NCBI GenBank assembly: GCA_950295325.1
Contig: OX485807.1
Coordinates: 39,338,440 to 39,402,439, forward strand
DNA length: 64,000 bases
Direction of reading: 5' to 3'
DNA from: Polytrichum commune
Taxonomy: Eukaryota > Streptophyta > Polytrichopsida > Polytrichales > Polytrichaceae
Made by a program: the position numbers and the translations under genes. Positions 21,395 to 58,513 of the stretch are shown here, piece by piece (the first letter of the stretch is position 1; each line of letters opens with the position of its first letter). The notes below the pieces were generated by a model. That model ran no database searches, was not told the origin of the DNA, and saw nothing but the letters and a program-made list of their open reading frames with translations.

Positions 21395-21416
21395 GGGCAT
21401 CACCAGCCCTGTCCCT
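21395..21416 (+). repeat. Left terminal inverted repeat of the Harbinger element
   Basis: Twenty-two bases, GGGCATCA then CCAGCCCTGTCCCT; it pairs with 44778-44799 with one mismatch at position 8. Confidence 0.95.
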
Positions 21417-21446
21417 GTATCTGCTCCCGGCAGGGCGGGATGCAGG

Positions 21447-21636
21447 GAGCCCGGGTTTAGGCCGGGAGTGATTGGCGGGAGGGGGGTCCAGCCCATTGCC
21501 CGGCAAGGGCCCCCCGGCACTGTGGTATTCGAGCCACGTAGGCCCCCCGGCACATAGGTGTCACAGCCACCATGGATAAGGAAATGTGGAGCCCGGGTGG
21601 AGCCCGGGTGTGAGTTTCAAAGGGTGGAGCCCGGGT
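21447..21636. promoter_or_regulatory. Subterminal GAGCCCGGG motifs
   Basis: GAGCCCGGGT occurs at 21447-21456, 21589-21598, 21600-21609 and 21627-21636, and GAGCCCGGGC at 44742-44751 near the other end. Repeated subterminal motifs are where Harbinger Myb/transposase proteins are thought to bind, so these are candidate binding sites; the family assignment is known biology, the role of this motif is inferred. Confidence 0.5.
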
Positions 21637-21804
21637 TAGGGTTTAGGGTAGGGTTTAGTAGGAGGTTTTGCTCAAAATTCTTCCTCCAAGAGTTAGCAAG
21701 AGCTACCTCCAAGTTCTAGGGTTTAGGTTCCTCCAAGTTCCTGTTTTCTTTCATAGTTGGTTCCCTTTGTGTTGTAGTTGGGATTCTCATAGTAGTGGGT
21801 ACGT

Positions 21805-23109
21805 ATGGAGGCATGGAGGAAAGAGGTCCAGGCGTCTATTGACATGGCATTACAAAGTGATGAAGATGAAGAGGAGTATGAGGAGGCATTTTTCTCAACT
21901 ATGGTTGCAGCAGTTGTGGAAGAGGTGGAAGGTGAGGTGATGGTGAGACGGAAGCCTGGTGGGAGTACAATGGGGAGGCAGAACATTTTTCGTGACAGGG
22001 AAGCATACCATAACCTCTTGTATCAGGATTACTTTGCGGAGAATCCCACCTATGGTCCGACTCATTTCCGTAGGCGATTTAGAATGAGACGGGAATTGTA
22101 CGTTTCCATTATGGATGCAGTGGCGACATGTGATCCATGGTTTGTCCAAGGTGTTGATGCAGTTGGTAGGTTGGGATTGAGCACATTGCAAAAATGCACC
22201 GCAGCATTGAGGATGCTTGCGTATGGATTGCCTGCAGACGCGTGCGATGAGTATTGTAGATTGGGGGAGTCCACAGCCCATGAGAGCATGCACCGGTTTG
22301 TAAAGGCAGTGCGGGTATGTTTTGAGTCCACTTACTTGAGGCAGCCCACACGTCAAGATTTTGAGCGCCAAATGGCCATCAATGAGGCCCGTGGCTTCCC
22401 CGGTATGTTTGGGAGCATTGATTGTATGCACTGGATTTGGAAGAATTGCCCGGTTGTGTGGCAAGGGCAATTCCAGGACAAGGACAAGAACCGCTCTATT
22501 ATCCTCAAGGCCATAGCTGATCAAAGCTTGTGGATATGGCATGCATTCTTTGGACTCCCCGGGGGAAATAATGATATCAATGTTCTAGATAGATCACCTC
22601 TTGTTTCCAACCTACTTCGAGGAGAAGGCCGCGATCTCAGCTTCCAAGTCAATGGACATGTCTACCCTCGATTCTACCTTCTTGCAGATGGCATTTACCC
22701 GCCGTGGGCGTGCTTCGTGCAACCGATCCATGAGCCAATTGGGGAGATGAAAGAGCACTTCACTAAGTGCCAAGAAGGTGCCCGAAAGGATGTCGAGCGT
22801 GCCTTTGGCGTATTGCAAGCGAGGTTTGAAATTTTGAAAAACCCCGTCCGACAATGGGATCTTGCCATAATTGAGGACATCATTATCGCATGTATAATCT
22901 TGCACAACATGATCATAGAAGATGAGCAAGGATTGTCACTAGAGGCTTTTGGTGATTGGGGCCTTCCGGTTGAGCGGGTGAGGCATCCGCTATCATTTCG
23001 AGAGTTGCGATCAGGCACTAGGGAACTTGAGAATGTTGAGGCACACTTTGCTTTGCGCAATGATCTCATTGAACACTTGTGGATGGTGAAAGGAGGGCTC
23101 CAGACTTAG
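21805..23109 (+). CDS. PIF/Harbinger DDE transposase
   Basis: An uninterrupted 434-codon frame from an ATG at 21805 to a TAG. The first 60 residues are acidic. The nuclease core follows: GSIDCMHWIWKNCP (Asp206), GLPGGNNDINVLDRSPL (Asp257) and ARKDVERAFGVLQARF (Glu331). All three catalytic acids, and the DDE_Tnp_4-type signatures around them, are present. The length is normal for plant PIF/Harbinger transposases and no stop or frameshift is seen, so it could be active. It lies 410 bp inside the left end and converges with the hydrolase gene ending at 23160. Transposition would also need the SANT protein at the other end of the element. Confidence 0.95.
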   Translation: MEAWRKEVQASIDMALQSDEDEEEYEEAFFSTMVAAVVEEVEGEVMVRRKPGGSTMGRQNIFRDREAYHNLLYQDYFAENPTYGPTHFRRRFRMRRELYVSIMDAVATCDPWFVQGVDAVGRLGLSTLQKCTAALRMLAYGLPADACDEYCRLGESTAHESMHRFVKAVRVCFESTYLRQPTRQDFERQMAINEARGFPGMFGSIDCMHWIWKNCPVVWQGQFQDKDKNRSIILKAIADQSLWIWHAFFGLPGGNNDINVLDRSPLVSNLLRGEGRDLSFQVNGHVYPRFYLLADGIYPPWACFVQPIHEPIGEMKEHFTKCQEGARKDVERAFGVLQARFEILKNPVRQWDLAIIEDIIIACIILHNMIIEDEQGLSLEAFGDWGLPVERVRHPLSFRELRSGTRELENVEAHFALRNDLIEHLWMVKGGLQT

Positions 23110-23159
23110 ATTTACACCATAGGGCTGCAAATTTGAATTCTGATAATATGAGACTCTCT

Positions 23160-26100
23160 TTATTGTGAAAAAAATTGGGCATTGAGGTTTAGGCCAGTCC
23201 CACCATTTCTGTAACCCATCATGTGATTCTCACTAAACGCACCTTGATTTTGACTTAAACCTACACTATGCAAACCATACATAACATTTGTATGTCCAAA
23301 TGCACTAGGCTGGGAGCACACATAATCAGTTTGTGGCACTTCTACACTTAGCCCTGCTCTAAAAGTTCTACACTGACTAGGTCCTTCGAGTCTTCTGTCT
23401 TCGCTGCCACCGATCGTCTCGTTGCGTTGTGACTCCCCTGCAGCCACTTGGGTGTCCGGGATTGCCGATGTGTCACCCCAGTTCGAGTCCTCTTGATCTC
23501 CTGCAATCACATGCAAGTTACACGAATGTCAAACACCATAAATAAGCGACGAGTGTTCCAGGAGTATGCCTTCCTGCGTGGAGCATTCTGTCCGTACATG
23601 GAGCAATCTGCAATTAAACAACCAATGCTAGTTAGTACTAATCGACCACAGATCGGCTGGGACAGAAAATGCGCATTTCTGGAGACAATTGTGAGGGAGT
23701 TTGGCGTAGCATTCACTGAAATGAGATGGCAAGCAAATACCGAACAACAACAATACAAAGCAAATTGCTTCTACATAAACTACACATACCATGTGTCAAG
23801 TTTGGGCACCACAGTCTTCTCGCTTCGCAGTAGCAAGTCAATATCCTGTAAATGCTAATTACCATTGGTATCTGCCTCACCCCACCTAGGAACTGCAAGG
23901 ACAATCATGATGTTAGTTTTTGATACAGTTCTACACACAAGATTGTCACACGTTGGGAATGTCCTGTAAAGGCTAATGATATCAATCTCAACTTCTACCT
24001 TGTTCAACATAATTATTGAAATATCATCCCTGTTGAGCATGTTTGAAAATGAAAAGGAAAAGTATGGAACGTCTATGATGCCACTTAGTTGACACGCTTA
24101 GGAGTTCAGCAGCAATCTTACCTTCAAAGCCATTCAGCCCAGCCCTGTGCCAATCTGAGCCTGTCAGCAGGTTACCTTGATCACTTTCGAAATGAGCATC
24201 TCCATGATCGTTCGGGTCTCATAATCACCAATTTGGCCTTCCCGTAAGATATCGGCAGCAACAGGACTTCCACCATATGGACTTTGAATTAGTGCTAGCC
24301 CAACCACTTTATCTTTCAATTCGTTCCAAAACATGGAGCAAGCAGCAGCTGCATCTACTCCTCCTTTGGAATGGCCCAATAACACGACTTTCTTCTGTGT
24401 TCCCCAGTAAAGCTCCTTGATGTGCTCCTTGATCTGTGCTGCATTCTTCTCCACAGCAGCCTATAAAATACCAAACATCTTAGTAAGAAACAACCTCTCA
24501 CACTCCATAAGCTAAACATATATTAACTGGTTACTTTCTGTTGTTTGCCATAATTCACAACTTAGGATTCTTCTTGAATCCGCAAATGTGATATGAGAAT
24601 TTAGCAACAATCTATAGGCTAATTTGGTTTCCCCTGTTGCTGCTACGATTTTTCAACAGCAAAAGTATTGGGGCCATAAAATGAGTATGTTGAGTATGGA
24701 GCCTAGAATGGTGAAAAATCTTAAGCACATAGTCCAATCTCTTTTATAAACATGTCTTCTTGGTGTCCGTTCTTAGATCTATACTTAATCACATACCACA
24801 CAAACTTAGGTGTCTGATTACGATAAGTAACCGAATTAGGCATGTTCACCTTACTAACTTTCAGCAAGTGGGTATGATGAACATTTCACAACAAGAAGAA
24901 ATATTTGGTGGTACATTAGACGTGAATGACGTGCTTTTCTTAAATGGGTAAAATATTATGCATTTGTGAGTGACACATCACTTGCCTCACTATGGATTTT
25001 TGCAATGTGACAGGCTAGGCCCAGCTTTGAGAAGTGCCTCTTAGTGTCAACAAAATATAGGGGCCCATGATTGCTAAAGAGACCTGCATGATCACAGATA
25101 ACACAGATGATAGTCACTAGCTTCCTACTTAATCTCGCATGCATATGGGGTCTACCTCTTGCACAGTCTTCACCAAAATATAAAGATTGGCTGTAACCTT
25201 GGCACCAGAAAAAAAAAGCTCTCAATGACATGCAAATAGACCTCTCAATGTCGATTGAGACACTTTGTATCATCCTTTTCGCCAATCAATAAAATTATTT
25301 CTAAGTGAATGAAGCACAATTCAACGGTTCATAACTAGCATACCTGGAATGAGAAGGTATGTAACTGTGTTGGGAAGTATGTGCACACCGTGTCTGCATG
25401 TAGAACAAAGCTGGTCCTTAGTTTCATTTTGAAGAAGCCACATCACTCAGATGCTAGTGAATGAAGGAGAAAAAACAACCACCTGCGTAGAAAGATATGA
25501 TACTTTACCGTATCTACTCAGAAGACACCACATGCTCATCCCACCCATAGTAATATATATCATAAATCTGCACTTGCCGCCATTATTGAGAGAGAGAAAC
25601 AACCCTCGGTCACTAAAGAGAAACAATATTTGAGGGCCAGTAGGAGTTTAGAGGGTTGCCTCACTCTCAATAATCGATGGGCAATAAAGATTTGGATAAC
25701 ATTTGGGCTTCGTGGGTGAGAAGAGTATGCAACTTCACTCCAAAACATACCTTGAAAACCAACTATAGAGAGAAATATTGTACAGTGATTGTTGGACAAT
25801 GCTAACAATGCTTACAATTCAAGGACATACTCTAAAAGCAAAAGCTTACCAACAACTTTGGCAATCTGGCGCCCTAAATTGGACGCAGACTCCGCAAACC
25901 TCACTGCAACTCCATTAATCATTGGAAGTGGTGGTAAACACCATGAATCCATGCCTAAACCCAAGCGAGATGAGACCTGCAAATTTTTTGTAAATGGTAA
26001 GTAACAACCACTTTGACAATTGGCTAACCTCGCCAGTTGGTCCACATTGCCAATTACCATTGAAGAAAAAGAAAAAGACCGCCCCCCCAAAAAAGTAAGG

Positions 26101-26259
26101 CGAAGGAATGAAGGAAGGCAGACAAACAAAAAAAAATGCAATGTCAATGTTGCAGGCTACAACCTGCAAGTCATCAGATTGTGCGCCAACCTGCACAGGT
26201 AGCACCTGTGACTGGGAATTGATGCTTGGAGCATCAGAAGTCATCTCTTCCATTTGCAA
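23160..26259 (-). CDS. Alpha/beta-hydrolase (lipase/esterase-like), multi-exon, Harbinger cargo
   Basis: Minus-strand exons that can be read with splice sites: 25976-25850, 25083-24986, 24460-24176, 23845-23790, 23607-23537 and 23500-23160, plus a possible upstream piece at 26259-26165. The exon at 24460 carries the nucleophile elbow VVLLGHSKGGVDAAAA (G-x-S-x-G). The preceding exon reads GLFSNHGPLYFVDTKRHF, resembling the start of plant hydrolases that recognise a 'lost' upstream strand. The last exon is a Ser/Gln/Gly-rich tail ending in a stop at 23160. The exon at 25083 seems to use a GC donor (GAG|GCAAGT). The catalytic Asp/His were not placed with confidence. It looks like an ordinary plant housekeeping-type gene rather than a transposon gene. 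The true 5' end is missing or lies beyond 26.5 kb; candidate exons appear at 43.0-43.45 kb. Confidence 0.6.
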
Positions 26260-26339
26260 GACTTCATACTGCCCTAATGCTCCACCCTCTGCATGTGGGA
26301 GGACATTAGCTTTTACAAACGACTTTTCATTTCAGTATT

Positions 26340-26700
26340 CCAAGAAATTTACCTCCGCAACTACTGCATCGATAGGCAGGATGTGGCTAGTACAGAATGA
26401 CCCGAATTTTTTCACACGGATTGATACACCTACTTTCTCAATCTCTAACAACAAGTGATGTTGAGTCTAAAGATGAGTCCTACTTAGTTTGTGAAATTTT
26501 CTGTCATTGAGAACATCAAAATAATAAAGCTAGAATTTCCATTAAAACGGAATGACATGAAACGCTACATCCATTGGAAGGATGTGGATAATACAAAACC
26601 ACCACAGATTTCTTCGCATAGTGTGATCCACCTTCTTTCTCAATCTCTAACGACAACAATTGAACACTATATTCGTTAAATTGAGACTTTTTGGGCATTT
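26340..26700. repeat. Imperfect direct duplication ending in an inverted-repeat arm
   Basis: TTTCTCAATCTCTAACAACAA near 26436 recurs as TTTCTCAATCTCTAACGACAA near 26636, with related sequence before each. The second copy runs into ACACTATATTCGTTAAATTG (26661-26680), whose reverse complement lies at 42.93 kb. Confidence 0.55.
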
Positions 26701-26814
26701 TGAGACATTCACATAAATAAGAACAAGGATAAATGGAACACATATTGGAGAAAGTTGTAAGATGCGAACACTTTGAAGCAGGTGTTTAGACCAAGAACCC
26801 CATAAATAACTCAT

Positions 26815-27100
26815 ATTTGTGATGGTTTAGGGTGGGCAATCCAAATCTTAGACCACATTTAAGGGGAAACCTTAAAACATTCATATTATTGCACACAAAA
26901 TATTAGAGCTTGTATGAATATGGTTTAGGTAGGGCAATCCAAACCATAGATCTTATTGAAGGGTTAATATGTTAACCAATATAATATTGCATACAAAATA
27001 TTCCAAACTCATATTTGTGATGGTTTAGGTAGGGCAATCCAAACCTTAGACCATATGGAAGGGGAAATCATGTCTAACTTGTATTATTGCAAAAAAAAAA
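26815..27100. repeat. Three ~100-bp direct repeats
   Basis: The phrase ATGGTTTAGG(T/G)(A/T)GGGCAATCC recurs near 26821, 26922 and 27022 with conserved flanks, each followed by an A/T-rich stretch with ATTGCA.ACAAAATATT. No coding potential. Confidence 0.7.
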
Positions 27101-27239
27101 CATACAAAGTGTGGCATGTAAAATGCATATCATGCTAACACCACACATGCATTGGATAGTGCGACCCAAAATGTTCTTGCCTATGGCCCAAAACCCTACG
27201 CCTACTATGGCCTATCTAGCCTCGGATACTACCTCTTTT

Positions 27240-28021
27240 TCTTTTGCTTCATTTTCTTTTGCTTTTTTTTTCTTTTGCCTCTTTTTCTTTTGCTGCAGCT
27301 TCTTTTGCTCGCATTGCTTCAACATTCCTGAAAATCTCCGCCCCGCGACTATAGCCATTCTTGGGGTGAACGCCATCAATAACACATTTTGTATTCCGTC
27401 GGCCGCCCGAATTATACGACGAAGAATTCGAATACGATGAAGTGGACTGTCTTGCATTTCTGGTCATGGAGTAGAAACGCTCCAACTCGATGGACGCACT
27501 AGACCGCATAGGTTTACGGGTGGGAGCAACCTGCAACGCGTCAACGCAAGAACACATGTGTTAGTTTAGGGAGGAAGACCCAAACGTGTCACACATTCAT
27601 TTTTTAAGTGCAAAATGATTGTAATGCGCGGATAACCATGTTTTTTTGGGGGGGGGGGGGGGTTCACCTTGTCACCGGGGGCGTTCCCGTCGGAGTTGGC
27701 GAGGAGGGGCAAGGCATCCCGCAAAGGAATAGGAAGGGTTCCACTCTTCGTAGGCCGAGCGTCCATCCGCAGCCGCCGTTGAGGTGTACTACTGCCGCCG
27801 GGCCGAGAGGGGGATGTCCGGACGCATTTGCGATTTATGCCTTTGAGCGGTGACGGGGACGCAGATCGCCGGAAGATTTGCTTGGGTGGGGGGCTATCGA
27901 CGACGCCGGCGTCAAGAGGCTCCTTGGAGTAGTCGATGGTTGACGCGGCGTCGTAAACGGTCTCGTAGAAGAAGCTCCCCAAGTCTGACTCGCTGACGAC
28001 GTCAATCGAGGGCTCCAAACG
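27240..28021 (-). CDS. Low-complexity protein exons, function unknown
   Basis: Two minus-strand exons fit splice signals and phase: 28021 (after TTTTGGCTCCAG) to about 27669 (before GTGAACC), then about 27530 (after TTGCAG) to about 27240. The first is acidic then Ser/Pro-rich (RLEPSIDVVSESDLGSFF...); the second is basic and ends in Lys/Glu repeats (AKEKEAKEKKSKRK). No domain recognised. It lies just 3' of the FCP1-like exon and may be its downstream part or a separate gene. Cargo of the Harbinger element. Confidence 0.4.
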
Positions 28022-28164
28022 CTGGAGCCAAAATTGGAACAAAACAAAACCCAAGGAAAAGGGGGGAGATAGAGCGCGTGAAAATCAAGATACATATGAA
28101 GCGTAAATTACACAAAATGGGTAGGCGCATATACACACACACACATACAAACACACGTACTGTC

Positions 28165-28977
28165 TCAAATGAGCTTGTTAAATTTCGCGTGAGATAACAA
28201 CTCTCTGTACAAATGGTCTCGTGGATCCAAGTATCTCTCGCCTATGGGATTATTCCTAACAAAATTGTTTACGGGAAGTCCGCTTCCCCAGAGCGCCTGG
28301 AGGTATTTACTAAGGTCTAACAAAAATCGGTCCCGGACCTTCTCGACCGTCCACGTAGGGCACACTATGAAGTTGGCCGTCGGGTTCAACATGTTCTTTG
28401 CGGCGCTGTCGTCCACCATGAGCGTGTTCTCGCGGGTGGGGCGGACGTCGTAGGGGACGCCTATCAAGGACGGTCGCTGGTCCCAAAAAATGGGCTTCAA
28501 GACCTTGAGGTATTGGGGGGAAGCGGGGTTGTTTGGTTTTTTGACGACTTTGCCGTCCTGTGTGTACAATATTCTACAGGCTTCCTGTGCTAGGACCATG
28601 CAGGGGGGCTCGATGCCCTTGAAGATGAACTCCACGACCGCATTGGTGTTCTCGGCCGTCATGGAGCTCCACACGACCACCCACCATCGTTGTTGGGCGA
28701 TCTGGAGGAAGGTCCGAAGCCACGGGCGGAGGTGAACTAGTTTGCTCTTTATGAACGTGGGCGGCCCGTCGTAATTAGCGTCCTCGGGCTTGCAAAAGGG
28801 CACCGTGGGGGTCCTAGGGCAATGAACGCATTGGACGAGGACCCCGTTCAGGTCTAACACCAGGAATCGTTTCTTCGGCAGCGGGGGCGGGGCGGGTAAA
28901 ACCGGGGGCGCCGCCGCGCTGCCCTCTCCGCTCCTTGGGGAAGAGCGTCGGGGAGCCGCTACGCTATGCTCCGAGCC
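28165..28977 (-). CDS. FCP1/NIF-like HAD phosphatase domain, nucleophile motif altered
   Basis: One long exon opens after TATCCGCAG at 28977. A Pro/Ala-rich lead is followed by KKRFLVLDLNGVLVQC, the FCP1-homology nucleophile strand with DxN where active enzymes have DxD. Then come HLRPWLRTFLQIAQQRWWVVVWSSMT (the core strand with WSS) and ENTLMVDDSAAKN (the second acidic motif), ending in a stop at 28165. Plants carry an FCP1-like group with LDLNG motifs of uncertain activity. The Asp-to-Asn change argues for weak or no phosphatase activity. No first exon was found; the exon is in phase with the end of exon c of the ParB/methyltransferase-like gene (29480), so a fusion is possible. Confidence 0.6.
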   Translation of the reverse strand, partial: GSEHSVAAPRRSSPRSGEGSAAAPPVLPAPPPLPKKRFLVLDLNGVLVQCVHCPRTPTVPFCKPEDANYDGPPTFIKSKLVHLRPWLRTFLQIAQQRWWVVVWSSMTAENTNAVVEFIFKGIEPPCMVLAQEACRILYTQDGKVVKKPNNPASPQYLKVLKPIFWDQRPSLIGVPYDVRPTRENTLMVDDSAAKNMLNPTANFIVCPTWTVEKVRDRFLLDLSKYLQALWGSGLPVNNFVRNNPIGERYLDPRDHLYRELLSHAKFNKLI

Positions 28978-29247
28978 CTGCGGATACGAGCGAGAGAAAA
29001 CGGGGGCGACTTATGTCATGCTATGTCCAAACGAAGCATTAAGGAAACGAGCGTTCTCGGTGCAAACACAAAAGCATTTGATTCATTTTGGAGGGGGTGC
29101 AACAAGGGATACAAGGGATACAAGAGCATACAAAATACATTCAAACACAATATACAAGTATATAGGAGTCAAAAATGGTGATTATATTATATACAATGCT
29201 CTATGTACATCTTGATTGGGGGAGCCGCGTTGAACGATGCGTTCAAA
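28978..29247. other. Short non-coding interval
   Basis: About 270 bp with no convincing exon; it contains a GGGATACAAGGGATACAAG direct repeat near 29105-29123. Confidence 0.4.
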
Positions 29248-32200
29248 CTAGCCTACTTCTACATCTAGAAAAAATTGAAGAGACGGGCCGCCGTGATGAA
29301 GACTTCGTTGCAAAGCCGGGGGTAGGTGGACGAACGAATGGTCGCTGGGGGTGACGAAGGGCGCGAGTGCCGGGGGGGGCCTAAGTTCGTCCTAGCTAGG
29401 GGACACGACCAAGGCAAGAAGTCAAAGACCCAGGAAGTTTGGGTCGGCCGACCCAAACTGAGTGGGGTCAGTGCATTACCTCGCCTTGGTCGTGCCTTGA
29501 CGACGTTGATGCCGGCATCGCGTGCGCTGCCCCACCTCTGTCACCGCCGCCTCCGACGACGCCGTCAGCCGCAACCTGCTCCTGCAAAGGCTGACTGTCA
29601 GGCCTTTGTCCCAACCCAACCTCCGCATGCGCATCATGCATTGGTTCATCGACTGGGTTAGGAGTAGAGGTATCACCAGGCCCTTGCGGGCCTTCAACAT
29701 CTAGCATAGGCTCGTCGACCGGGGTCTGATGGGGGACGGGGTTTGGGTCGGCCGACCCAAACCCTGCTGCTTGGCGAGGGTCGCTCTGCGACGCTGCAAC
29801 GTCGGCACTGTTTGGGTCGGACGACCCAAACATGTGGGGGTCGTCCCGCTGGTGGTGTGGGGGCAAGAGGATGGGAGGCCGGAGCGGGGGGGGTGCCAAC
29901 GAGCTGGACGCTCCGGGGACGCGCCAAAGGTTTGGATCATCCACCTGCTGCACAGGCGCGTAAGGACGGGCGTGCGGCTGCAGCAAATCCGCGAAGCTGA
30001 AGGAATGCTCCAACGCCGGCCGCGGGCGGATATCCTGTGGAGGGAAGCCTGCGGGCAAGTGAGGGAATGAACTCGGGGGAGCCATCACCAATCCCTGCGC
30101 CAGCATGCCCTGGATCACTTGCGTGATGAGGTCCGCTTGGGACGGAGTTTGGGACATCGCCCTTTGCCGCTCCTGCTCCAACAGGAGAGCCCTCAACTCC
30201 GCGACTTCGTTGCGGACAGAGGGTTCCTCGGCGGCAGCCCTCTGCAGTCGCACACGCTGCTCCTCGTCTCGGAGCATTTTTGCGTTCGCCTCCTCCACGG
30301 TGAGGACCTCCGGTTTCACCCTCACATTCCCGGCGAACGCTCTGGGGGAGGCAGGATCAGACCTCAGCTTCTTGGCGAGTTCCATGTCGTCCTCGTCCTC
30401 GGAGCTTATTGCGATCGTCTCCTCCACCGCATAGTCCCCGTACAGCTTCTTCCCCTTCATCCTTCTACGCTCCCTGAAGGTGGCCGTCGCGTCCCTCGAG
30501 TACATATCCTTGGCGTCGTCCACCGTCAACGCGGGCACCAGCCTGCTCTGCGGCGTGGCAGGCCGCATGGCCTTCTTCCGCTGAGGGGCCTCGGATTCTT
30601 GAGTGAATCCTGTTGCCCCTTCCTCCACCTCCCCCTCCACTTTCTCTGCTTCCTCCTCCGCCTCCTCCTCGTCTTCCTCCCCCTCCTCCCCAACCCTGCC
30701 ACCTGCTCCCATAGACGGATTGCCCGGATGCAACCCGATGAGCGGCTCTGGCAATTGAACGGGGGCCCGCATGGCGAATTCACCCGGGTTGATTCGCCTC
30801 GCAATATCCAAAGGATTCTCGCCCCCCTCGACGATCTCTTCGACGTAGGATCCGGGTATCCAGTCGAGGATGTCCATTCTCTTGGCCAGCGCCTTTTGGG
30901 TCCTGTAGAATTGAACATCGGCATCCTCTACATAGGAGTAGATGTTCAACCCAGACATCTGCACAATCAAAATCAATACTATTAGTAACACCAAATGAAC
31001 ATATAATGGAAAATGACTTCCAAACAAAATAAGAATAGTTAGTTTGGGTCGCTCGACCCAAACTATGCATGGCCCTAGTTTGGGTCGCTCGACCCAAACT
31101 GTGCATGCCCCTAGTTTGGGTCGTTCGACCCAAACCGAACGTATAGGGACTTCTGGGTTTTCTGCTTACCATGGCTGCAAAAATCGGTTTGGACCCCCCG
31201 AAAACGTTGAAGATGCAGTCCCCTCTCTTCGTGAGGGTCCTCATCATCCGCAGGTAGAACTCCATGCGCAGCTCATCCGCGGGGTAGTTGGCGTACTTCG
31301 CCTCGTCATATAAGCTCCTGCTGGTACCCAACCCTTCTTGGACTTGGAAGAGCTTTTCCATCCTGGCTATGGGATGGTTTGGCACCTTAAGCAGCTCAGC
31401 TTTGTACACGAAGTACAAACACAGCACGTTGACGATCTTCGTCTTCTTGTCTTTCAGCGTGCTGTACGCCCCCTCCGCCGGTGCAGCAACGTAGTGAGAT
31501 TTCGAGACGGCATACTCCGGCTGCAATTTGCGCACGATCTCGTAAACCTACTCTGCCCTTCTGTCCTCGACAATCCAGAGCCAGACGTCGACCTCCCTGA
31601 ATTTGGGGCTGGCGTAGTCCACGAACTTCGACAAGAAAGGATCGTAAAAAGGGGTGCTCATAGTCCCCTCGAATGAGGCTCCAGGGATGTTCCTGAAGTC
31701 TATCATTCCGAAGGGGAAGCGGTCCCCGGCTCTAGTCCTGATCGCCTTCCTTGACTCAGAACCCGGCCAACCCTGGATCCTGAGAGGTTCGACAGTGACC
31801 ATGTTGAATTGCGCATCACCTTCGAAACTGACGATCTTCTTCTCCTTTATGAAGTTGGAGAAGGCCCGCACTGAGTGTTCGGGAAGCGCCCGGTTCCTCC
31901 CCCCCTTCACGAGCTTGGATCTGAGGAAGTCGTCTCCCGCCTCCCTCATGAGTGCCGCCATGGACGCACTGGTAAACTTATATTCGGCTTTGAAGGCCCT
32001 CCAGTGCGCCTCGTCGACCTCTCCGTCCACGATGAGCTTCTTCTCTGGCACAAGCTTGTGCAGCTCCTGGACGATGGTCGTCTTCTTCTTCCTGTTCTCC
32101 GTCCATTCCTTCATTGTGTAGCATGAAGGGACGAAGATCTTGGGTTTGGTGAAGACGATCTTAGGGTGGACCCAGCATCTCTTCGCCGTCGTCTCCACGT

Positions 32201-34033: not shown

Positions 34034-34189
34034 CTGCAATCCAAGAAATCGAAACTGTGAGTTTCGGTCGATCGACCCAAAGTATTGCAATGTGCATTTA
34101 ACATTTGGAGGATTGACCCAAACATTTACTTAATTTTCAAAGTCGTTTTAAAAGATCTTTTAGATTTTAAAGTGTGGTTTAGGTGGTCA

Positions 34190-34930: not shown

Positions 34931-35781
34931 AGTTCATTTTAGGCTGCAATTCAAATATTTATTATATTTTAATATGAGTTTGGGTCGTCTCCCCAAACTA
35001 CTGTGTTTCCAGATGCATGTTTAATGCTTGGGCAACATATACAATGCTTATGCATTGTATATGTAACAGGAACCTAAAGGGAATGATGCAAATTGTGTGC
35101 ACTGATGCAAATTGCTTACCTTGTCTTTCAAACTCTTGAAAGCTGCTCTCACAATCTGCTTCTTACAACCAGACTCAGAAACTCTGTTGTGGCACTAAAG
35201 AACAACTCTCACAAAGATCTCAGAAACACAATGAATCTCTCAAGCACCCTAAAACTTTCTCACAAACCCCCTGATTCTTGCAAACTCAGGCCTAATTTGA
35301 AAGACCTCTACCTTTCTATCACACTCCACCGTGCTCACTTCTACTCAACCTAAAATCACTCCATGCATGAATTTTACAAAACAAGTAAGGAGTTCAACAC
35401 AATAAACCGTTCCGAACTCACTCAAAGCTAACACTCTGGACCAAGAAGAGAGAATAAGAAGAGGAAGACAATAACACGAGGAATAGAATGAGAGAAGAGG
35501 AGGAGAAGCATCAGAGAGGAGGAGAGGAATGAAGGAGAAAGAAGAATGAAGGGAAGCGGCGCGACCAAGACAAAAGCAAAAGGTGCGAGAGGAAGCGCTT
35601 GGCGCGGCGCTATGGAAAGCGGCGGCGGCGTTTCCAAGAGCGGCGCTTGGCGCGGAGGAAGAGAGGAAGAAAAAGAGAGAAAGAAAAAAGAGGAGGGGAG
35701 AGAAGGAGAGAGCGGAAGGGGTCACCCTAAACCCTCGAATCCGGGCCATTAGATTGCGCCGGGCCCATCAACGGCTCAGAA

Positions 35782-35846
35782 GCCTCGCGGGCCAACACCT
35801 TGCCAGGTGTCGACACCTCCTTGGTTTAGGTGGTTGCCCGCGAGGC
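35782..35846. repeat. Inverted repeat with nested palindrome AGGTGTCGACACCT
   Basis: Arms GCCTCGCGGGC.AACACC (from 35782) and GGTGGTTGCCCGCGAGGC (35829-35846) surround the perfect 14-base palindrome at 35805-35818. It could extrude a cruciform. Confidence 0.75.
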
Positions 35847-36502
35847 TTGTGGTGTTGACACCTGCCACCCTAGGGAGATTGCCTTCCTGGTTGTCCTTGC
35901 CCCTAGGTGCGGGACATAGGAGGGCCGGCGCCTCTCTTGGCCGCCCGGCCCCGGCCTTCTAACCCGCTATTCATTAGCGGCAATTCAATACCAGTCAAAA
36001 ACCTACGTGGACTAAGGTATTCCACAAAATTAACACCATCACCAACTCATATTTTAATGGTGTTCAATTGAATGATCACCCGTTGGAATTGATAACATCG
36101 TTGAATGTAGCCATTATCGTTTTGGTGTATGAATAATGTAATTTATGGAATCATATGAGAGTGTTACAAAGTCTAAGAGGAGTAAGTCATAATTATATTG
36201 CAATCCACAAAGGCAATTACACGGTGCAATAATATAAATATGGTAACCATTCACATGGTTAACAGTTTAGGATTATGTATTGTAATTTATATGATGGTTG
36301 TTGGTAGAGGACAATGCTCTAGTCTATAATGGATACCCTAACAAGTAGCATTAGAGTGAACATTAATATATGTACTTAGAAGTTCACATTTGAAGTACAT
36401 GGGAGAAACAAATGATTACAAATGTATCTACTGCAACCCCATGGAGTTCACATATCATATGAAGTCATTTAAACATTCAGTTTGATGTTTGATGATGCCT
36501 GA

Positions 36503-36531
36503 ACCCTAAACCCTAAACCCTAAACCTTAAA
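36503..36531. repeat. Interstitial telomere-type repeat (CCCTAAA)
   Basis: Three exact CCCTAAA units and one variant. Such short tracts are common in plant promoters and at repaired breaks; they do not imply a chromosome end. Confidence 0.8.
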
Positions 36532-37339
36532 CAACACAAACCATAACTGGATGGCACATAGGTCAAATGACATGGGCCTTGGTGCTTGTAGTTTCCAATA
36601 CAAATGTATATTGTCATCACAACATCCTAATTCACAAACGTGAAAGATGGATGTGTGGTTTTTCACGAATGAACGCACTAAAGGAAATAAACGATATTGT
36701 GCTCACAAGTAGGTGATACAATATTAACCTATAACCTTGTCACCTGGTAAGAAAAGCATAAGAACTAGATTATAATGGATAGGATGTTGTTCATGTTAAC
36801 ATGTTATTTGGAATAGTGAAATATTATATATTAATTTAAAGTAGATTTCATGTTGTGAATGATATGAGGACATACCTTTTGAACTTTGCATGTTTTGCTC
36901 ACACACATTGGTAGAGTTCAAGGGACTTCACGATAGGTTCAAACATCCTTGGAAGATTGAACGTGCCAAATGTCATTTGTGGTTTAGGGTTCCATTAATG
37001 ACTTCCACATAGGTACTAGGTTATTGTCACACTTGGAGTCTTGAGGATGAAGCAATATTGGGTGCACACATTACAACACAACATATGTTCTTTTAATTAG
37101 CAGAAATTGAAAGTTGGCCAAATTATTCAAGTTTGTCATGGCATTAATTATTTGTTTTCAAAATATAAGTCCTCATGTGAGAGTCTAAATAATAGCATTA
37201 ACTATTATATTTAGTGACTTTTAGTATATGAAGTTTTATAATACATGCACATCTTTTGTCAATATATTGTTTGAAATATACCATAATGTTTGACTACAAG
37301 TAGAGTAAAACCCCTTAATAGATATAATCTTACATATTG

Positions 37340-37475
37340 TCATAGGGTTATTGGTATTCAGTGTATGCGTTCATATGTAGTGTATCAAAACCTTTATATC
37401 CTTTTTAGTTATATGATAGTTAGTGTTTGATACACTTAAAACGAACGCATACACTTCCCATTACTAACCCTATGA
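37340..37475. repeat. ~52-bp imperfect inverted repeat (hairpin, MITE-like)
   Basis: TCATAGGGTTA...GTGTATGCGTTC...GTGTATCAAAAC (37340-37391) is mirrored by GTGTTTGATACAC...GAACGCATACAC...TAACCCTATGA (37423-37475), with a 31-base AT-rich loop. Confidence 0.8.
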
Positions 37476-38096
37476 GAGTAAGTAACATTAAATGTAAACT
37501 CAAACACTAAATATCCACTATGGTGATATATGGAAGTTACATATAGGGATTTAGTATTAGTAAGGATGTGAGAAAAATATACAACAATGATAAAAGGAGA
37601 AAGGAGATGGCAATAGGGAAGGTGGTGGTGTATTCATGTATAAAACTAATTATGAAAGAGTTGAAGAATAGTGTTGACCAAGTTAGGGTGGTAACAACTT
37701 TAAATATATGTTGAATTATTCATTTGGTGGTTGGGGCAACGAAGAGCCAAGCTAAATATACATTCTCTATTATTGACAAGAAGCGGGAAATTGAGTCAGA
37801 AGGTTTGAATTAACATCCAAAGGAGACCAGGTGGGAAAGGCATCCAAAGAGGATGCCCAAAGCGGAGGCGGGTAGTATAAAGAGCCCAACCCCCCCAAAT
37901 GCTGGTTCTTTCTTTCATGTCCCAATCCTGAGATTGCTGCAAGCTCTCTAAGTTGGAGCTGTAATACACGGTTTGTATACGCTTCCATTCATGAGCAGCT
38001 AATTACAACAAGCATCTATGAGTTCAGTTGTCCCAAATAGGTTATAAATAGATTAATAGAGCATCACCCGAATAAATAGGCGGATTTTGCGGAATT

Positions 38097-39135
38097 GTTT
38101 GGGTCGGTCGACCCAAACCCAGCCTTACAGTGTGGGTGCTCTCTGTATTGAGCCAGAACCCATCCTGCCTCAAGGTTTGGGTCGATCGACCCAAACCCAG
38201 CCCTACAGTGTGGGTGCTCATTGTTGTGAGCCTGAACCCATCCTGCCTCATGGTTTGGGTCGATCGACCCAAACCCAGCCCTACAGTGTGGGTGCTCACT
38301 GTTGTGAGCCTGAACCCATCCTGCCTCATGGTTTGGGTCGGTCGACCCAAACCCAGCCTTACAGTGTGGGTGCTCTCTGTTGTGAGCCTGAACCCATCCT
38401 GCCTCATGGTTTGGGTCGATCGACCCAAACCCAGCCCTACAGTGTGGGTGCTCTCTGTTGTGAGCCTGAACCCATCCTGCCTCATGGTTTGGGTCGATCG
38501 ACCCAAACCCAGCCCTACAGTGTGGGTGCTCACTGTTGTGAGCCTGAACCCATCCTGCCTCATGGTTTGGGTCGATCGACCCAAACCCAGCCCTACAGTG
38601 TGGGTGCTCACTGTTGTGAGCCTGAACCCATCCTGCCTCATGGTTTGGGTCGGTCGACCCAAACCCAGCCTTACAGTGTGGGTGCTCTTTGTTGTGAGCC
38701 TGAACCCATCCTGCCTCAAGGTTTGGGTCGATCGACCCAAACCCAGCCCTACAGTGTGGGTGCTCATTGTTGTGAGCCTGAACCCATCCTGCCTCATGGT
38801 TTGGGTCGATCGACCCAAACCTAGCCCTACATTGTGGGTGCTCACTGTTGTGAGCCTGAACCCATCCTGCAAAAAGGTTTGGGTCGCTCGACCCAAACCC
38901 AGCCCTCTAAGTGTGGGTGCTCCCTGTCGTGACCCAAAACCCATTCTGCCAAAAGGTTTGGGTCGCTCGACCCAAACCCAGCCCCTAAGTGTGGATGCTG
39001 TCTGTAGTGAGCCTAAACCCATCCTGCCAGAAGGTTTGGGTCGCTCGACCCAAATCCAGCGCCTAAGTGTGGGTGCTCTCTGTATTGAGCCTGAACCCAT
39101 CCTCCCAAAAGGTTTGGGTCGCTCGACCCAAACCC
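38097..39135. repeat. 78-bp minisatellite, 14 units, one palindrome each
   Basis: The unit is the TTTGGGTCG palindrome followed by CCCAGCCCTACAGTGTGGGTGCTC...GTGAGCCTGAACCCATCCTGCC. Palindromes start every 78 bases from 38098 to 39113, with one 79-base step at 38878-38957. The left ten units are nearly identical; the right four are more diverged. Because 78 is divisible by three, several frames stay open on both strands, but these repeat peptides are probably not genes. The array ends about 210 bp before the ATG of the plus-strand gene at 39347. Confidence 0.95.
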
Positions 39136-39346
39136 AGCCTCTAAGTGTGGTTGGGATCTGGGTGCCGGTGTGGCCACTGGCCTTCCGAAACCTTTACAAG
39201 CCCAATGGCATAGCAGTCATATGAACTTGTATGAGCACTGAGTATTTGCAATTTTGTTTATATATGATGGTTTTTTTGTTCTTCGATTTGAACCTACAAT
39301 TTTTGTGATTTTAAGACAATGTTCAATGTTCATGTGTGTAGGCAGA

Positions 39347-42300
39347 ATGGATGGGTTTAGTGAAATAGGGGATTGGTCATCTGATGACATGGCCACTTGG
39401 CCATCTGCATCTGATGATGACCTAGACATTGTCGGGGAGGCTACTATGGCTGACAGTGCGGATGAAGATCATTTGGATTTACCTTCGTCTTCCGTACCGC
39501 AGTGTCCCATTGTTGAATGTACGGGACTTTCAAGGGCTTCGTGGGTGAATTTGGAGGTGATACTTCTTAACGATAGTGGAGTTGTTGTGGCGGAGGGGAT
39601 TTGCCGTAACACCCATCCGCAAGATTGCATTGATGAAAACCCGCTTGGCACTGAGGACGTTGGGGTTGTCATATTGGAGTCGGTCGTTCATTCCGAGGTG
39701 GATCCCACTCATAGGTTCTCCCTCCGCAGGTGGCCATTGAGGAATGTCACAATTGATGGAGTTAGCTTGCGTGAACATGAGCAACGACACATGCAAATCG
39801 AAAAGGAGGTGCAATCAAACATGCGGCCGCGCAAGGGTCAAAGAAAGTACGATACATTGGCACGTCCTGCTCCGTCTGCAACTGATTGTAAACGTCAAAG
39901 GTTGCTCGGGGAGGAGTCCATTAGAGAAGTTGCCACAAAGGATTGTTGTGTGCATCGTTGTTGCCAATTGTTTCCAAGGGATAAATTGAAGGTCATCCGC
40001 GAAGAAATGTGGCTTGGAGATTTCCGTCTAAGATCCACAAGAAAACTTGATGTCCATAGGGCGATACATGTGAATGGGACGGGTCGCAAGGTCATCACCA
40101 TTGAAAGCATAGACGTGTGTTGTAAGGCATGGTACACCATTCACGGTGTGTCGAAATCGGACTTTTATAGACAAGCTGCTTATGCCAAGGAAGGCCGCCG
40201 GTCCCGTCACCATGGTAACGTGGGTTTAAAGAAGCCTAGGGAAGCAACAAGGCAAGCAACGGCCACTCTAGCAACCATCATTGTCCCTCTTGCCGATGCA
40301 ATGCCGCACAAAACACGCACACTCACAACCGGTGAAAAGGTTGTGGAGAAAGTTCTTCCCACAGGCACAAAATGGAAAGACATATTGTTGGACGTTAATG
40401 CAGTTGGCGAGAAGATTGGGTTGGAGCCAATTTCATTGTCAAAATTAAGTGCAATCAAGAAACAAAACTTTAGCGAATACATTACAAAAAGACGAGGGGA
40501 CAAATTTGCCAGGTGCTCTAATTGCGAGAAGTTGAAGCGCCTCCGGGATGCACACACGATGGGCACCGAGTCATATGCAGCGCATCAATTGAACTATTTC
40601 AAGCACGTAAACATGCAAGAGGCACACCGTAATGATTACTACACAAATAGAGCTTTGTCCATCTCCAGGCCCTTGGAGGTTCTTACGGTCATCCATGACA
40701 AAATGGACCATGCCAAAACAGCCTCCCCATGTTTTGCAAATCGAATCAAGGCCACGGATGGGTTTTTCAAGTTGCCTGTATCGGTTACAGGTGAACTTCG
40801 AAACAATGTCATGACATATCCTAAATGTTGTTGTATTTTATTCCGTGATGTACTGGAGAACATGGATTCCTTCATAATGGTTTATTCATACATAGATGCT
40901 AATCACGTTGGGTTGGCATTGCAGGAATGATTGCACATGGACACGGTGATGTCAAATTTGCTCATTATGCTCTTGATTTGTATCCAGCGGATTCAAACCA
41001 CACGATAGGATCATTTGCAAGGCTTTTACGTGATTTAGAGAAACCACCAGCCTATTCTTGAGGATTGTTATTTGAGAACACGGGTTCAACACCTTTATAT
41101 GAAGCGGTGTTGGATGGAAAAGATGTATGCTTGCATTCGTTGCCCGAGCCACCCAATGAACCCGTGATTGCCAAGAAGTTGCCTCCAACTTTGCGTGTCC
41201 AATTGGACAATTGTGCCAAGGACAATAAAAGCAGATATGTATTTGCATATTGGTCGTTGTTGGTTGCGAAAGGCATTTTCAAGGAGGTTTTTGTGTCCTT
41301 CCTATTGGTAGGCCACACGCACGATGATATTGATGCATCTTTTGGGCGGTGGAGCATGAAGTTGCGGGAGGAGGATTTCCCTACAATTCCATTATTGATG
41401 AAGTCGTACATGGATTTGGAGAACGTTCCCGTCATCCCCCATATGATTGAGGAGGTGCCAGACTTCAAGGCATTTATAGAACCTTATATTCGAAGTGGAG
41501 CTCACCGATTGATCGGGCATACGAAGGCACAACAATTCCGCTTCTATATGCGTGACGATGGTGTCCCGGCCATGCAATACAAGTTGTTGTGCACGTCACA
41601 AGACTGGAGCCCGCCGGAGGGTCTTCTTGTGTGGCGCGTGGATGCGGATGGAAAGACCATGTTACCGGATGGGGAGCCTAGGCCTTGTAAGCCAATAGCC
41701 ATGAAGAATTTGGAGGATATTTTGAAAGGTATATCAGGCTTCATACAATATTGGGAGAGTTTGAAAATAGCGGATGTTGGCGGATCATGTTGGCATCGTT
41801 ATGGGAGTTGGATACATTATTGGACACGTGTTCGTGCCGCCTTGGCAGACCTCCACCAAGATAGCCCTCATACTTTGAGGCATGGATTTTGGCCACAAAC
41901 ACGAGTCGATGTACAAGCTTCAGAGCCTAGTCTTTTGGGAAATGGAGAGGTTCGAGAGGAGTTTGATGTGGACGACCATTACGTGGGGCCTGCTAGTAGT
42001 CGTCCCCCACCATCTTTCCGCATTGCAGTGGATTGTCATGAAGGTTATATGCTCATTTTGCGTCCTGGAGACGAGACATATGCGAAGCCAGTGTGGGTGG
42101 CAAGAGCTTTGTCCAATCCCAATTTTGTAACTTCCAGCCCTCATTTTCGACAAATACAAGTGGAGTACTATCGACCGACAGCAAGGAATGAAGATGTGAT
42201 TCGGCATTATACAGGCTGGGATACAAACCCTAACTTTCGGTGGAAGGTGGATTCTGAGCACGGTCCATCTTGGGTAGATACAGATTCCATATTCATAGCA

Positions 42301-42411
42301 TGGAAACCACGGAAACACCATAGTGGATCAGTGTCCATCCCTCAAAAGTACATAACTTTTGCAAAAGACAACCTTGCTCGGATTGCAGAAGAAGCAACCC
42401 ACGTTGAATGA
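39347..42411 (+). pseudogene. Transposase-like protein with LDNC..NKSRY..GHTHDDID signature, one in-frame stop
   Basis: The ATG at 39347 follows TAGGCAG, so a 5' untranslated exon is possible. Exon 1 runs to 40790, an intron (GTGAAC ... TTGCAG) spans 40791-40924, and exon 2 runs to the stop at 42411. The N-terminal 160 residues are acidic. A Cys/His cluster, DCCVHRCC, is near residues 199-206, and CSNCEKLKR follows. The core reads VIHDKMDHAKT, MIAHGHGDVKFAHYALDL, VQLDNCAKDNKSRYVFAYWS and FLLVGHTHDDIDASFGRW. This matches, from memory, a eukaryotic family annotated only as a domain of unknown function (DUF7869) and found in transposon-rich genomes; the spaced Asp residues suit a DDE-type nuclease. 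A TGA at 41059-41061 breaks exon 2; CGA to TGA by deamination would explain it. It stands head to head with gene 2. Confidence 0.6.
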
Positions 42412-43502
42412 GAAGTTGGTAGGATTGTGTTAGCATGATTATAGTTTAATACGTAATTATAGCAATATAAATTACACATATGTGTGCTCTTCAAAATTGG
42501 GGCAGAGTTTGGGTAGAACTTACGAATACTATATTGTTTGGAGTTGGATGAATATCCATTTACTATATTTCAAGCTGCAATTGAAGTTCATCTTATTATT
42601 ATGCTTGGGACTATATTCTCGAATGAAGAAACATGCATTTATTACATGCACTTTGTATGTTGCAATGTCTATATTCTATTGAACATGCTAATAATAGAAA
42701 TCATTTTATATATATTTTTGGGTGAAACTTGTTTGAAGTGCTCTACCCAATGTGTTTTTGTTGATGAAGTTGGTGTCGAGTGCTCTACCATATGTGCTTA
42801 TGTCCGCACATCATAGATTTGGGATATTAGAACATATAATATAATTGAGATTGTTGACAATATAGTTTCGGGCCTCTTCAAGTTCTTTGATCCATATATT
42901 AATTTGAGACTAGAGAAAGTCTCAATTTAACGAATATAGTGTTATTGTTGAGTTCTACACTCCACTATAGGTAAACAACACCTCTCTTCACTCTACCTCG
43001 CACTTATCATGTTGAGATGCAGGAAATACGGTCCACTTCTTAGGGTTTTGCTGAAGTTTCCGCCAACATCTCATATTTAATTGGAATTGAAAATGCACCA
43101 TATCTCCAGATGTGCTGAATCCTTCTCCACATCAAGAAACGTGAAAGAAAGAAAGCAGGACAAGAAGACTTGAGTACCAATTCTTTGCTGCTGCGGCTGC
43201 CGAGTAGCGGCAGCTCCATTACTTGCATTCGATTTCATAGCTTCGTATGGTTAACAACGATTCTCATGGCCACCTTTTTCCAACCTGTTTCTGGGAGTCC
43301 ACGAAAGAGTGCTGCATCCAGCATCACAGCTTCACAGACTTGAATCGTCTCCGAGGTTGCGGTGACCAGGTCCGACAATGGATTCCCAGCATTCGGCGAA
43401 ATCGGAGGTGGTGTCGGCACCCAGCATTCGGCGAATTCCTAAACCCAAAAACGCCCTAAACCCACAACCAACAATCCCAGCACCCTAAAACTAAACCAAC
43501 AA
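42412..43502. other. Mostly non-coding; possible minus-strand exon relics at 43040-43440
   Basis: 42412-42950 is AT-rich and holds the inverted-repeat arm (42914-42951) matching 26.66 kb. On the minus strand 43440-43235 (ETIQVCEAVMLDAALFRGLP...) and 43228-43040 read as coding-like peptides without a known domain. They could be the 5' exons of the hydrolase gene at 23-26 kb, separated from it by the intervening 16 kb. Confidence 0.3.
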
Positions 43503-44624
43503 TCAACAATCAATCCCAGGGTTTCGGCATTCACCTGTGAAGACGGGCAAATTGCGAGGAGTATCATCCGCAACTCCAGCGCTTGAATCCAAATTGGTCG
43601 GAGAGGGTGCCCAGGGTGGTGCAGTGGTGTCGAAGGGCACCACAGGGACTGCAACGCGATTCCTTCGCGAGTTCGACTCCAGGTTGCGGTCCTTGATGAG
43701 CTTCGAATGTTCAAGCTCCTCTAGCTCCGCAGCACGCCTCTCCACTCTCATTCGGCGCTCCAGTCTTTCAATCTCCTCCTGCCGACGGAGGGTGAAATAC
43801 CTTCTAGCCTCCTCGGTGATGCCCTCTTCCAAGGGCATGGTGAAGAGGGACAATGCACATTGGTCCTGCAATGCATTAGCCTTGCGAAGGCTTGCTTCGG
43901 CCATAGTTTCAGTAGCTCGGGCTTGAGCGGCCAATACCTTCTCCTGTTTCTTCTGCTGCAACAAATCCACCTTCGCCGACTTCGACCCCTGCGGCCTGGT
44001 GGGACGGGGGGGAAACCCAATGGGACTCGCGGCGACAAACCTCCCTACAACAGGTTCATCTGCCACAACGACCTCATTTTCTTCGGCACTTCGTTCATCT
44101 GAGGTGCCAACCTCACCAACAATTGTCGGAGGAGAAGGAGATTTCCGCTTCCCCATGCTTTGCCCTCTAGGGCTAATCTCCGCTGATCGCCTTTGCACAT
44201 CCACAGGGGAATCCCACCACCTCGGAATCTCCTTCAAAATATGCCAACAATGCAAGTAAGCAAATTCTTGGTGCTTGGGATGCCTATCCCGATAAAATTG
44301 GAGCGATTTGTCAACAACATCGTCAAGGGAGGCGCCGGACTCTCTGCAATCAAACACTTGCTTGTACGCCCCACAAAATTTGCCCACATCGTGTTTGATT
44401 TGACCCCATTTTGTCTCTAGCGACCTAGCTGGTCTCACAGGATTTGAGCATGGTTTGTTATGATTGAAATGAGCGGTGATGCGATCCCAGAATGCAGAAT
44501 TGCGTTGACCATTGCCACAAATTGGGTCTTGCGAAACAGCAAGAAAACTCCTACACAAGCTTCTCTCCTCATCGGCACCGAAATTTCTTCCCTTGCGTGG
44601 CTTTCCCGCCATTTGGTGTGCCAT
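43503..44624 (-). CDS. Harbinger Myb/SANT-like accessory protein
   Basis: A 373-codon frame starting at an ATG in perfect context (GCCACCATGG) at 44624; an alternative upstream TTG is ignored. The N-terminal Myb/SANT trihelix-like region reads FGADEERSLCRSFLAVSQDP, then FWDRITAHFN, then RSLETKWGQIKHDVGKFCGAY. A Ser/Pro linker with KRKSPSPP and PTRPQGSKSAK follows, then a long charged coiled coil (ERLERRMRVERRAAELEELE) of the kind annotated as the NAM-associated C-terminal domain. This is the second protein needed for PIF/Harbinger transposition; it binds element ends and helps import the transposase. It points inward 175 bp from the right end and shows no break, so the pair could be autonomous. 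Confidence 0.92.
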   Translation of the reverse strand: MAHQMAGKPRKGRNFGADEERSLCRSFLAVSQDPICGNGQRNSAFWDRITAHFNHNKPCSNPVRPARSLETKWGQIKHDVGKFCGAYKQVFDCRESGASLDDVVDKSLQFYRDRHPKHQEFAYLHCWHILKEIPRWWDSPVDVQRRSAEISPRGQSMGKRKSPSPPTIVGEVGTSDERSAEENEVVVADEPVVGRFVAASPIGFPPRPTRPQGSKSAKVDLLQQKKQEKVLAAQARATETMAEASLRKANALQDQCALSLFTMPLEEGITEEARRYFTLRRQEEIERLERRMRVERRAAELEELEHSKLIKDRNLESNSRRNRVAVPVVPFDTTAPPWAPSPTNLDSSAGVADDTPRNLPVFTGECRNPGIDC

Positions 44625-44777
44625 GGTGGCCTCGTAGCGGGAGGACAAGGTCTCTCGGCAAAGTCAAAAATTATGCCGAGAGCGGGAGTCCCTTTAGCGG
44701 GACCCGGTGCATAGCGGGCTGGGTGCCGAGCCCGTTGGCCCGAGCCCGGGCTACCTATTCACGGTAGTTGCCGTTGA

Positions 44778-44799
44778 AGGGACAGGGCTGGCGATGCCC
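44778..44799 (-). repeat. Right terminal inverted repeat of the Harbinger element
   Basis: Reverse complement reads GGGCATCG then CCAGCCCTGTCCCT, and it is followed by the TAA target duplication at 44800-44802. Confidence 0.95.
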
Positions 44800-58508: not shown

Positions 58509-58513
58509 TGGGG

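Follow-up and report, generated by a model that had tools for sequence, protein, structure and literature searches.

Giant DNA transposons of eukaryotes have been reviewed (PMC6431247), and a few described systems come close to the locus considered here. Sola1-1_Ec32, a 21.5-kb giant Sola-1 transposon of Ectocarpus, is reported to encode, on the strand opposite its transposase, an accessory protein with ParB-like and DNA methyltransferase parts, for which a role in binding and marking the transposon that encodes it was suggested (PMC12477816). The Sola superfamily, with 4-bp target-site duplications (TSDs) and possible lengths of more than 15 kb, is present in the moss Physcomitrella patens (PMC10741241). 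Pack-TYPE PIF/Harbinger elements, which are defined as non-autonomous, hold host-gene fragments between Harbinger ends and duplicate them to new loci (PMC8903248). The present analysis concerns a stretch of 64,000 nucleotides (hereafter, the window) from the moss Polytrichum commune, in which a 23.4-kb unit at positions 21395–44799 is bounded by Harbinger ends. The original prediction was that this unit might be a cargo-carrying giant Harbinger mobile as one piece, with a history of nested insertion as the alternative. The results described below indicate that it almost certainly consists of two nested transposons, a 16.3-kb giant element inside a 7.1-kb Harbinger.

The outer element begins with GGGCATCACCAGCCCTGTCCCT at position 21395 and, read from position 44799 on the other strand, with GGGCATCGCCAGCCCTGTCCCT; the two sequences match at 21 of 22 positions. 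Its flanks, joined with one TAA removed, gave an alignment of about 600 bp to four uninterrupted copies of a long terminal repeat (LTR) in the window, at 93.4–96.7% identity, and the end match is therefore not a product of chance. These results confirmed the ends, the TAA duplication and the empty-site LTR of the original prediction. The LTR, about 1 kb in length, is found in five copies in the window (11170–12153, 12854–13834, 18649–19618, 21026–21394 plus 44800–45405, and 57533–58514), among which the copy at 21026–21394 plus 44800–45405 hosts the Harbinger. Both Harbinger open reading frames (ORFs) are free of stops in the window copy and convergent (tail-to-tail), in agreement with the two apparently intact, inward-pointing proteins noted earlier. 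One encodes a DDE transposase of the PIF/Harbinger family; its partner, for which a Myb-like protein would be expected, matches the NAM-associated profile PF14303, which is not a Myb model.

The genome assembly searched comprises 64 contigs with a total length of 407.8 Mb. Using the left 306 bp of the Harbinger as a query, the best 40 of 49 candidates were scored, and five related loci were compared, namely C5:3.74M (C5:3742510–3749625), C7a (C7:37.05M), C7b (C7:25.60M), C5b (C5:22.78M) and C6 (21281403–21371604). The first of these is a 7.1-kb Harbinger with the ends of the window copy, the regions of its two genes and its host-gene fragment, and it aligns to window positions 21395–26662 (99.15%) and 42944–44799 (98.71%). 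These two parts adjoin in it with a 4-bp overlap, ATTG, which is present once and without the 16.3-kb insert; the locus therefore represents the inner element's empty site, and a copy of this kind had been named in the original prediction as a finding that would refute it. C7a and C7b are each 7.7 kb in length and C5b is about 3.4 kb, while the C6 copy is interrupted at the equivalent of window positions 22000 to 22004. The inserted DNA there amounts to about 83 kb, an LTR lies at each inner edge of the split, and the outer flanks of the copy are still visible. The TSDs of this Harbinger lineage are 3 bp in length, with TAA in the window, TTA/TTA flanks at C5:3.74M, C7a and C7b, and TCA/TCA flanks at C6. 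The inner element was found between the parts of none of the five related Harbingers (about 55 kb of the DNA splitting the C6 copy being unread), and its insertion point is present only at C5:3.74M. No second copy of the 23.4-kb composite was found among the five.

The inner element is bounded by a perfect 28-bp terminal inverted repeat (TIR), AACACTATATTCGTTAAATTGAGACTTT, flanked on both sides by ATTG. With repeats of a palindrome core set aside, this was the only exact inverted repeat of at least 16 bp listed in the region 20.5–46 kb. The left 328 bp matched with 100% identity at all 40 scored places (the best 40 of 842 candidates), and the right 328 bp matched at full score at 28 of 40 and with 98–100% identity at the others (the best 40 of 992 candidates). 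A listed same-strand right end lies within 40 kb of 25 of the 40 left ends, at a span of 15.8–16.8 kb in 19 pairs, 11.8 kb in one and 18.1–23.5 kb in five. The exact TIR has 672 matches in the genome (330 + 342; none for the reversed control), and the first 100 places listed include 37 facing pairs within 60 kb, of which 22 are 15–19 kb apart and three are shorter. If the 672 ends are taken as 336 elements of 16.4 kb, the family would occupy approximately 5.5 Mb, or 1.3% of the genome. In all 26 copies with both ends read, the two TIRs are identical to each other, and an exact 4-bp TSD is present in 25 (the window copy, all five of a first set, and 19 of 20 further copies); owing to a TAAATAAA repeat, one TSD can also be read as 8 bp in length. 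This sample began with 20 left ends, for five of which the right end lay within the stretch; six of the remaining 15 were later completed and nine were left out. Several of the counts weigh against the proposed mechanism of movement: 15 of the 40 scored left ends have no listed partner, 26 ends among the first 100 TIR matches listed are unpaired, 12 of the 37 facing pairs are longer than 19 kb, and one of the 26 copies lacks a TSD. Overall, the inner element is a real, abundant and probably recently active giant transposon. A 4.8-kb facing pair of exact TIRs at C1:42393157–42397936 encloses a DUF7869 exon (C1:42396058–42397404) and is probably an internal-deletion derivative of the family.

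The inner element contains a two-exon DUF7869 gene, the proposed transposase gene, and, on the opposite strand, a NIF/FCP1-like phosphatase ORF and an accessory gene with at least three coding blocks (E1, E2 and E3). A frameshift in the DUF7869 gene was considered and rejected, the feature being a normal intron. Intron 1 of the accessory gene reads GTGAGT...TGTGCAG and contains three palindromes. The protein database holds 196 relatives of DUF7869, and among the 120 listed the only one with a species name is from Physcomitrium patens (48%); E1 and E2 have 41 and 56 homologs, respectively, with no Pfam domain listed for either set. Prokaryote genome contigs yielded 31 pattern matches and no relative of the inner element. 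In the open-access literature, no paper naming DUF7869 was found, and none of the papers listed was recognised as describing the inner family. With its 4-bp TSD and perfect TIRs, the inner element resembles the Sola superfamily and is tentatively best described as Sola-1-like, the Ectocarpus Sola-1 element being its nearest known counterpart. Like Sola1-1_Ec32, it is a giant DNA transposon with an accessory gene opposite the strand of the (proposed) transposase; unlike Sola1-1_Ec32, it comes from a land plant, is 16.3 kb in length and has the extra NIF phosphatase ORF. Its accessory gene has several exons and shows no more than a ParB-like motif, and a palindrome is conserved across the element. 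No word with the stem "palindrom" appears in the main text of PMC12477816.

Nested insertion is close to certain, because two sets of ends, two duplications, an empty site and hundreds of further inner ends were directly seen, and nothing was found that speaks against it. A single moving unit of 23.4 kb, similar to the Starship elements of fungi, was rejected because an empty copy of the same Harbinger exists, and the predicted cargo Harbinger of that size is not supported, since most of its cargo (16.3 kb) is a separate transposon with its own TIRs and TSD; the nested history proposed as its alternative is borne out by the 28-bp TIRs and the ATTG duplication inside the Harbinger and by the empty copy. 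The likeness to Starships is thus confined to the concept of large cargo-bearing elements, whereas the genes here are those of a Harbinger and DUF7869 and the 23.4 kb is nested. It is also conceivable that the inner element was aboard before the Harbinger landed in the LTR, such that the whole 23.4 kb made at least one joint move, as the ends of both elements are intact and TAA flanks the Harbinger with the insert inside. However, none of the five related Harbingers examined carries the inner element between its own parts, and the only one with the insertion point is empty; furthermore, the inner ends are identical across dozens of copies, whereas the two Harbinger copies differ by approximately 1%, and the inner insertion is therefore probably the younger. 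Such a move is considered improbable. Under the preferred nested explanation, a 7.1-kb Harbinger, which carried its two genes and a fragment captured from an alpha/beta-hydrolase-like gene, entered the LTR, duplicating TAA, and a member of an abundant family of giant DNA transposons, 16.3 kb in length, entered the captured segment, duplicating ATTG.

The inner element would move by cut-and-paste, with the DUF7869 protein as a DDD transposase. A contrary possibility is that DUF7869 is only cargo and that the family depends for its movement on an unrelated transposase acting in trans. It draws on the premature stops in two genes of the window copy, a TGA at 41059–41061 in the DUF7869 gene and a stop at 31548–31550 in the accessory gene (between E2 and E3, where homologs read on), and on the DUF7869 profile, for which, as for that of E1, no convincing relative was found among solved structures; both points weigh against the transposase assignment. 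Of 1807 candidate genome matches to the DUF7869 exon, however, 94 were scored, each with at least 96% identity (96–100%), and internal stops are present in 15 and absent from 79; the window copy is counted among the latter because the query begins 3′ of its stop, leaving a stop-free exon in 78 of the 93 other scored copies. In addition, an alignment of 47 DUF7869 proteins shows near or full conservation of the motifs HDKMDH (its second Asp), QLDN and GHTHxDID, and their conserved Asp residues are a possible DDD triad, while scans of the other inner ORFs, which left out 35–38 kb, found no transposase family. A role of DUF7869 as mere cargo is accordingly regarded as unlikely, and under the DDD transposase proposal the window copy would itself need help in trans because of the stops in its two genes. 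The large size and several genes of the inner element might also suggest an endogenised virus or virus-like integrant, but no capsid, polymerase or packaging family was found among the scanned ORFs, pattern scans of 2.9 million viral contigs revealed no exact TIR, palindrome, or DUF7869 or E1 relative, and the constant 4-bp TSDs and hundreds of ends also speak against it; a viral origin is thus highly implausible.

Table 1. Coordinates in the window of the two nested elements, their genes, target sites and repeats
Feature	Position	Strand	Remarks
Left TAA target-site copy of Harbinger	21392..21394		Within LTR
Harbinger left TIR, 22 bp	21395..21416	+	1 mismatch vs. right TIR
Harbinger DDE transposase, stop-to-stop ORF, 437 aa	21796..23109	+	PF04827 3e-85; PF13359 2.8e-13
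Captured host-gene segment, first part (alpha/beta-hydrolase-like, exons and introns)	24153..26662	-	Interrupted by inner element
Left ATTG target-site copy of inner element	26659..26662		ATTG once in empty copy
Inner giant transposon, 16,281 bp	26663..42943		
Inner left TIR, 28 bp	26663..26690	+	Exact match to right TIR
NIF/FCP1-like phosphatase ORF	28165..29010	-	PF03031 3.8e-15; TIGR02251 2.9e-8, below cut-off
Long ORF, perhaps a final exon; 5′ end approximate	29468..30960	-	Adjoins accessory gene; holds 2 palindromes
Accessory gene, at least 3 coding blocks	31165..34024	-	E1 ~32.71–34.02 kb; E2 + E3 31165–32516
Palindrome array	34200..34925		158-bp and shorter spacings
Palindrome array, 78-bp period	38098..39132		Exact arms in 14/14 units
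DUF7869 gene (proposed transposase), two exons	39242..42411	+	Intron 40791–40924; PF25273 6.8e-38
Inner right TIR, 28 bp	42916..42943	-	
Right ATTG target-site copy of inner element	42944..42947		
Remainder of captured host-gene segment	42948..43284	-	
Harbinger second protein, NAM-associated-domain match	43503..44663	-	PF14303 3e-11
Harbinger right TIR	44778..44799	-	
Right TAA target-site copy of Harbinger	44800..44802		
LTR copies aligned to joined Harbinger flanks	12933–13529, 18719–19315, 57839–58439, 11476–12075		

The novel part of the finding is a 22-bp palindrome, GTTTGGGTCGNNCGACCCAAAC. Its exact 20-bp core, TTTGGGTCGNNCGACCCAAA, occurs 33 times in the inner element and nowhere else in the window; two more sites in the element have one mismatch, and the half sites number 35 and 35. 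Except for two in the ORF at 29468–30960, the exact cores lie outside the marked coding blocks (31 of 33). The exact 22-mer occurs 9,231 times genome-wide (control, 0), both strand counts being one set because the sequence is palindromic. In ten arrays compared, the spacings include 32, 36, 57, 64, 78 and 158 bp, and the spacers are mostly unrelated. Some spacer match was found in eleven array pairs; the strongest, between the 78-bp array of the window and an array at C1:616 kb, reflects the same array in another copy of the element, and some of the others stem from decayed palindromes within spacers. In the five last, most diverged units of the 78-bp array, none of 18 arm columns varies, compared with 32 of 58 other columns (Fisher p 1.3e-5, with columns that are not independent and a 1-bp indel in one unit that inflates the 32 of 58). 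Since the arms are invariant while other columns vary, it is the palindrome rather than the repeat unit that appears to be kept, and because it persists while its surroundings turn over, it looks like a selected unit. Intron read-through spelling the palindrome or a close variant at one end, in one of its frames, was found with a self-made motif list among the relatives of E1 and E2 (20 of 41 and 16 of 56, respectively). Three subterminal repeats similar to GGTTTAGGTAGGGCAATCCAAACC, an imperfect palindrome resembling the internal one, are located at 26824–27045 with a spacing of about 100 bp; the inner element has such repeats in its left 738 bp and none in its right 700 bp. Three arrays with 32-bp spacing (C1:477745–478028, 2159610–2159887 and 462875–462992) lie outside the exact-TIR pairs listed nearby, so that the palindrome may also occur in element families that are older or different.

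Set in arrays with mostly unrelated spacers, the palindrome is a candidate parS-like site. E1 contains GDFWLIDGQHSVEASK, with a DGQHS motif spotted by eye, which we take to resemble a ParB box, and the palindromes would be sites for a DNA-binding protein encoded by the element, most likely this DGQHS (ParB-like) protein. Tentatively, the inner family may represent a giant transposon of land plants equipped with a parS-like system, in which a ParB-like, perhaps methylating, protein of the element would bind dozens of exact 22-bp palindromes, most of them in introns and spacers, and so mark, insulate or pair the copies of the element. The evidence includes several results that count against this proposal. 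The ParB likeness of E1 consists of one motif, with no family match in profile searches, and hhalign of E1 against a DGNHR protein encoded elsewhere in the window gave an alignment confined to this motif (E 0.09, probability 0.6%). For E2/E3, profile scans yielded no match to a methyltransferase family and no significant match to a methyltransferase-looking ORF of the window. The latter two ORFs belong to a region on the minus strand (697–4756), with the DGNHR (ParB-like) motif in the ORF at 4022–4756, the methyltransferase-looking ORF at 697–2079, and 128-bp tandem repeats nearby at 2736–7430. This region is perhaps another ParB plus methyltransferase element; its two ORFs have no family matches in profile scans and no significant profile match to E1 or E2/E3.

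On a smaller scale, cargo was found in the Harbinger itself. The captured segment of the window, outside the inner element, is 96.6–96.9% identical to a donor locus near C5:40.67M, which has about 1.45 kb extra between its two matches and at which no Harbinger ends were found among the best 40 candidates of each end search. An exon in this segment (24167–24460) matches PF07819 at 7.4e-5, just under the cut-off, and PF11187 at 1.9e-4, just over it. The C6 copy departs from the window sequence at 24154 and rejoins it at 43285, the edges of the captured segment, and between them contains about 2.77 kb in which parts of two genes are recognisable, one for a beta-ketoacyl synthase (PF00109, 5e-25) and one for a cellulose synthase (PF03552, 2.9e-22). 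A different segment of 4.17 kb is common to C7a and C7b (99.7% identical); its edges are not those of the captured segment (23538 and 43384), and it shows a weak adaptor/coatomer-like match (PF00928, 5.4e-5, below cut-off). A cargo segment of comparable size is absent from C5b. The differing segments in the window, C6 and C7a/C7b indicate that the slot between the two retained genes holds different host-gene fragments across copies, and these fragments would have replaced internal sequence of the Harbinger by a repair-type process. The idea of cargo carriage, not supported at 23.4 kb, is therefore retained for host-gene fragments between two kept Harbinger genes. Ends and cargo are common to two pairs of loci, the window with C5:3.74M and C7a with C7b; the composite was found only once. 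Like Pack-TYPE elements, this Harbinger holds a captured host-gene fragment (donor identity ~97%) between its TIRs; unlike them, it keeps both genes, stop-free in the window copy, and its fragments vary among copies of one lineage.

Elsewhere in the window, a 693-aa ORF at 9111–11192 on the plus strand, which by eye resembles a DDE (MULE-like) transposase and has no Pfam match above the cut-off, ends at an LTR copy, and the minus strand at 45342–51486 contains an NB-ARC gene region with a long LRR array of 72-bp period, together with a protein kinase gene.

For the PIF/Harbinger superfamily, the lineage described here is of interest for several host-gene cargos that lie between one and the same pair of genes, in elements that have lost neither of the two. 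For giant transposons of the Sola-1-like type, the inner family, in which the scored DUF7869 exons are 96–100% alike and mostly open, has an element-specific palindrome present in 9,231 copies and kept across differing spacers. This palindrome provides a candidate target site, which would open to testing the published proposal that giant transposons of algae bind and mark their DNA with ParB-methyltransferase proteins.

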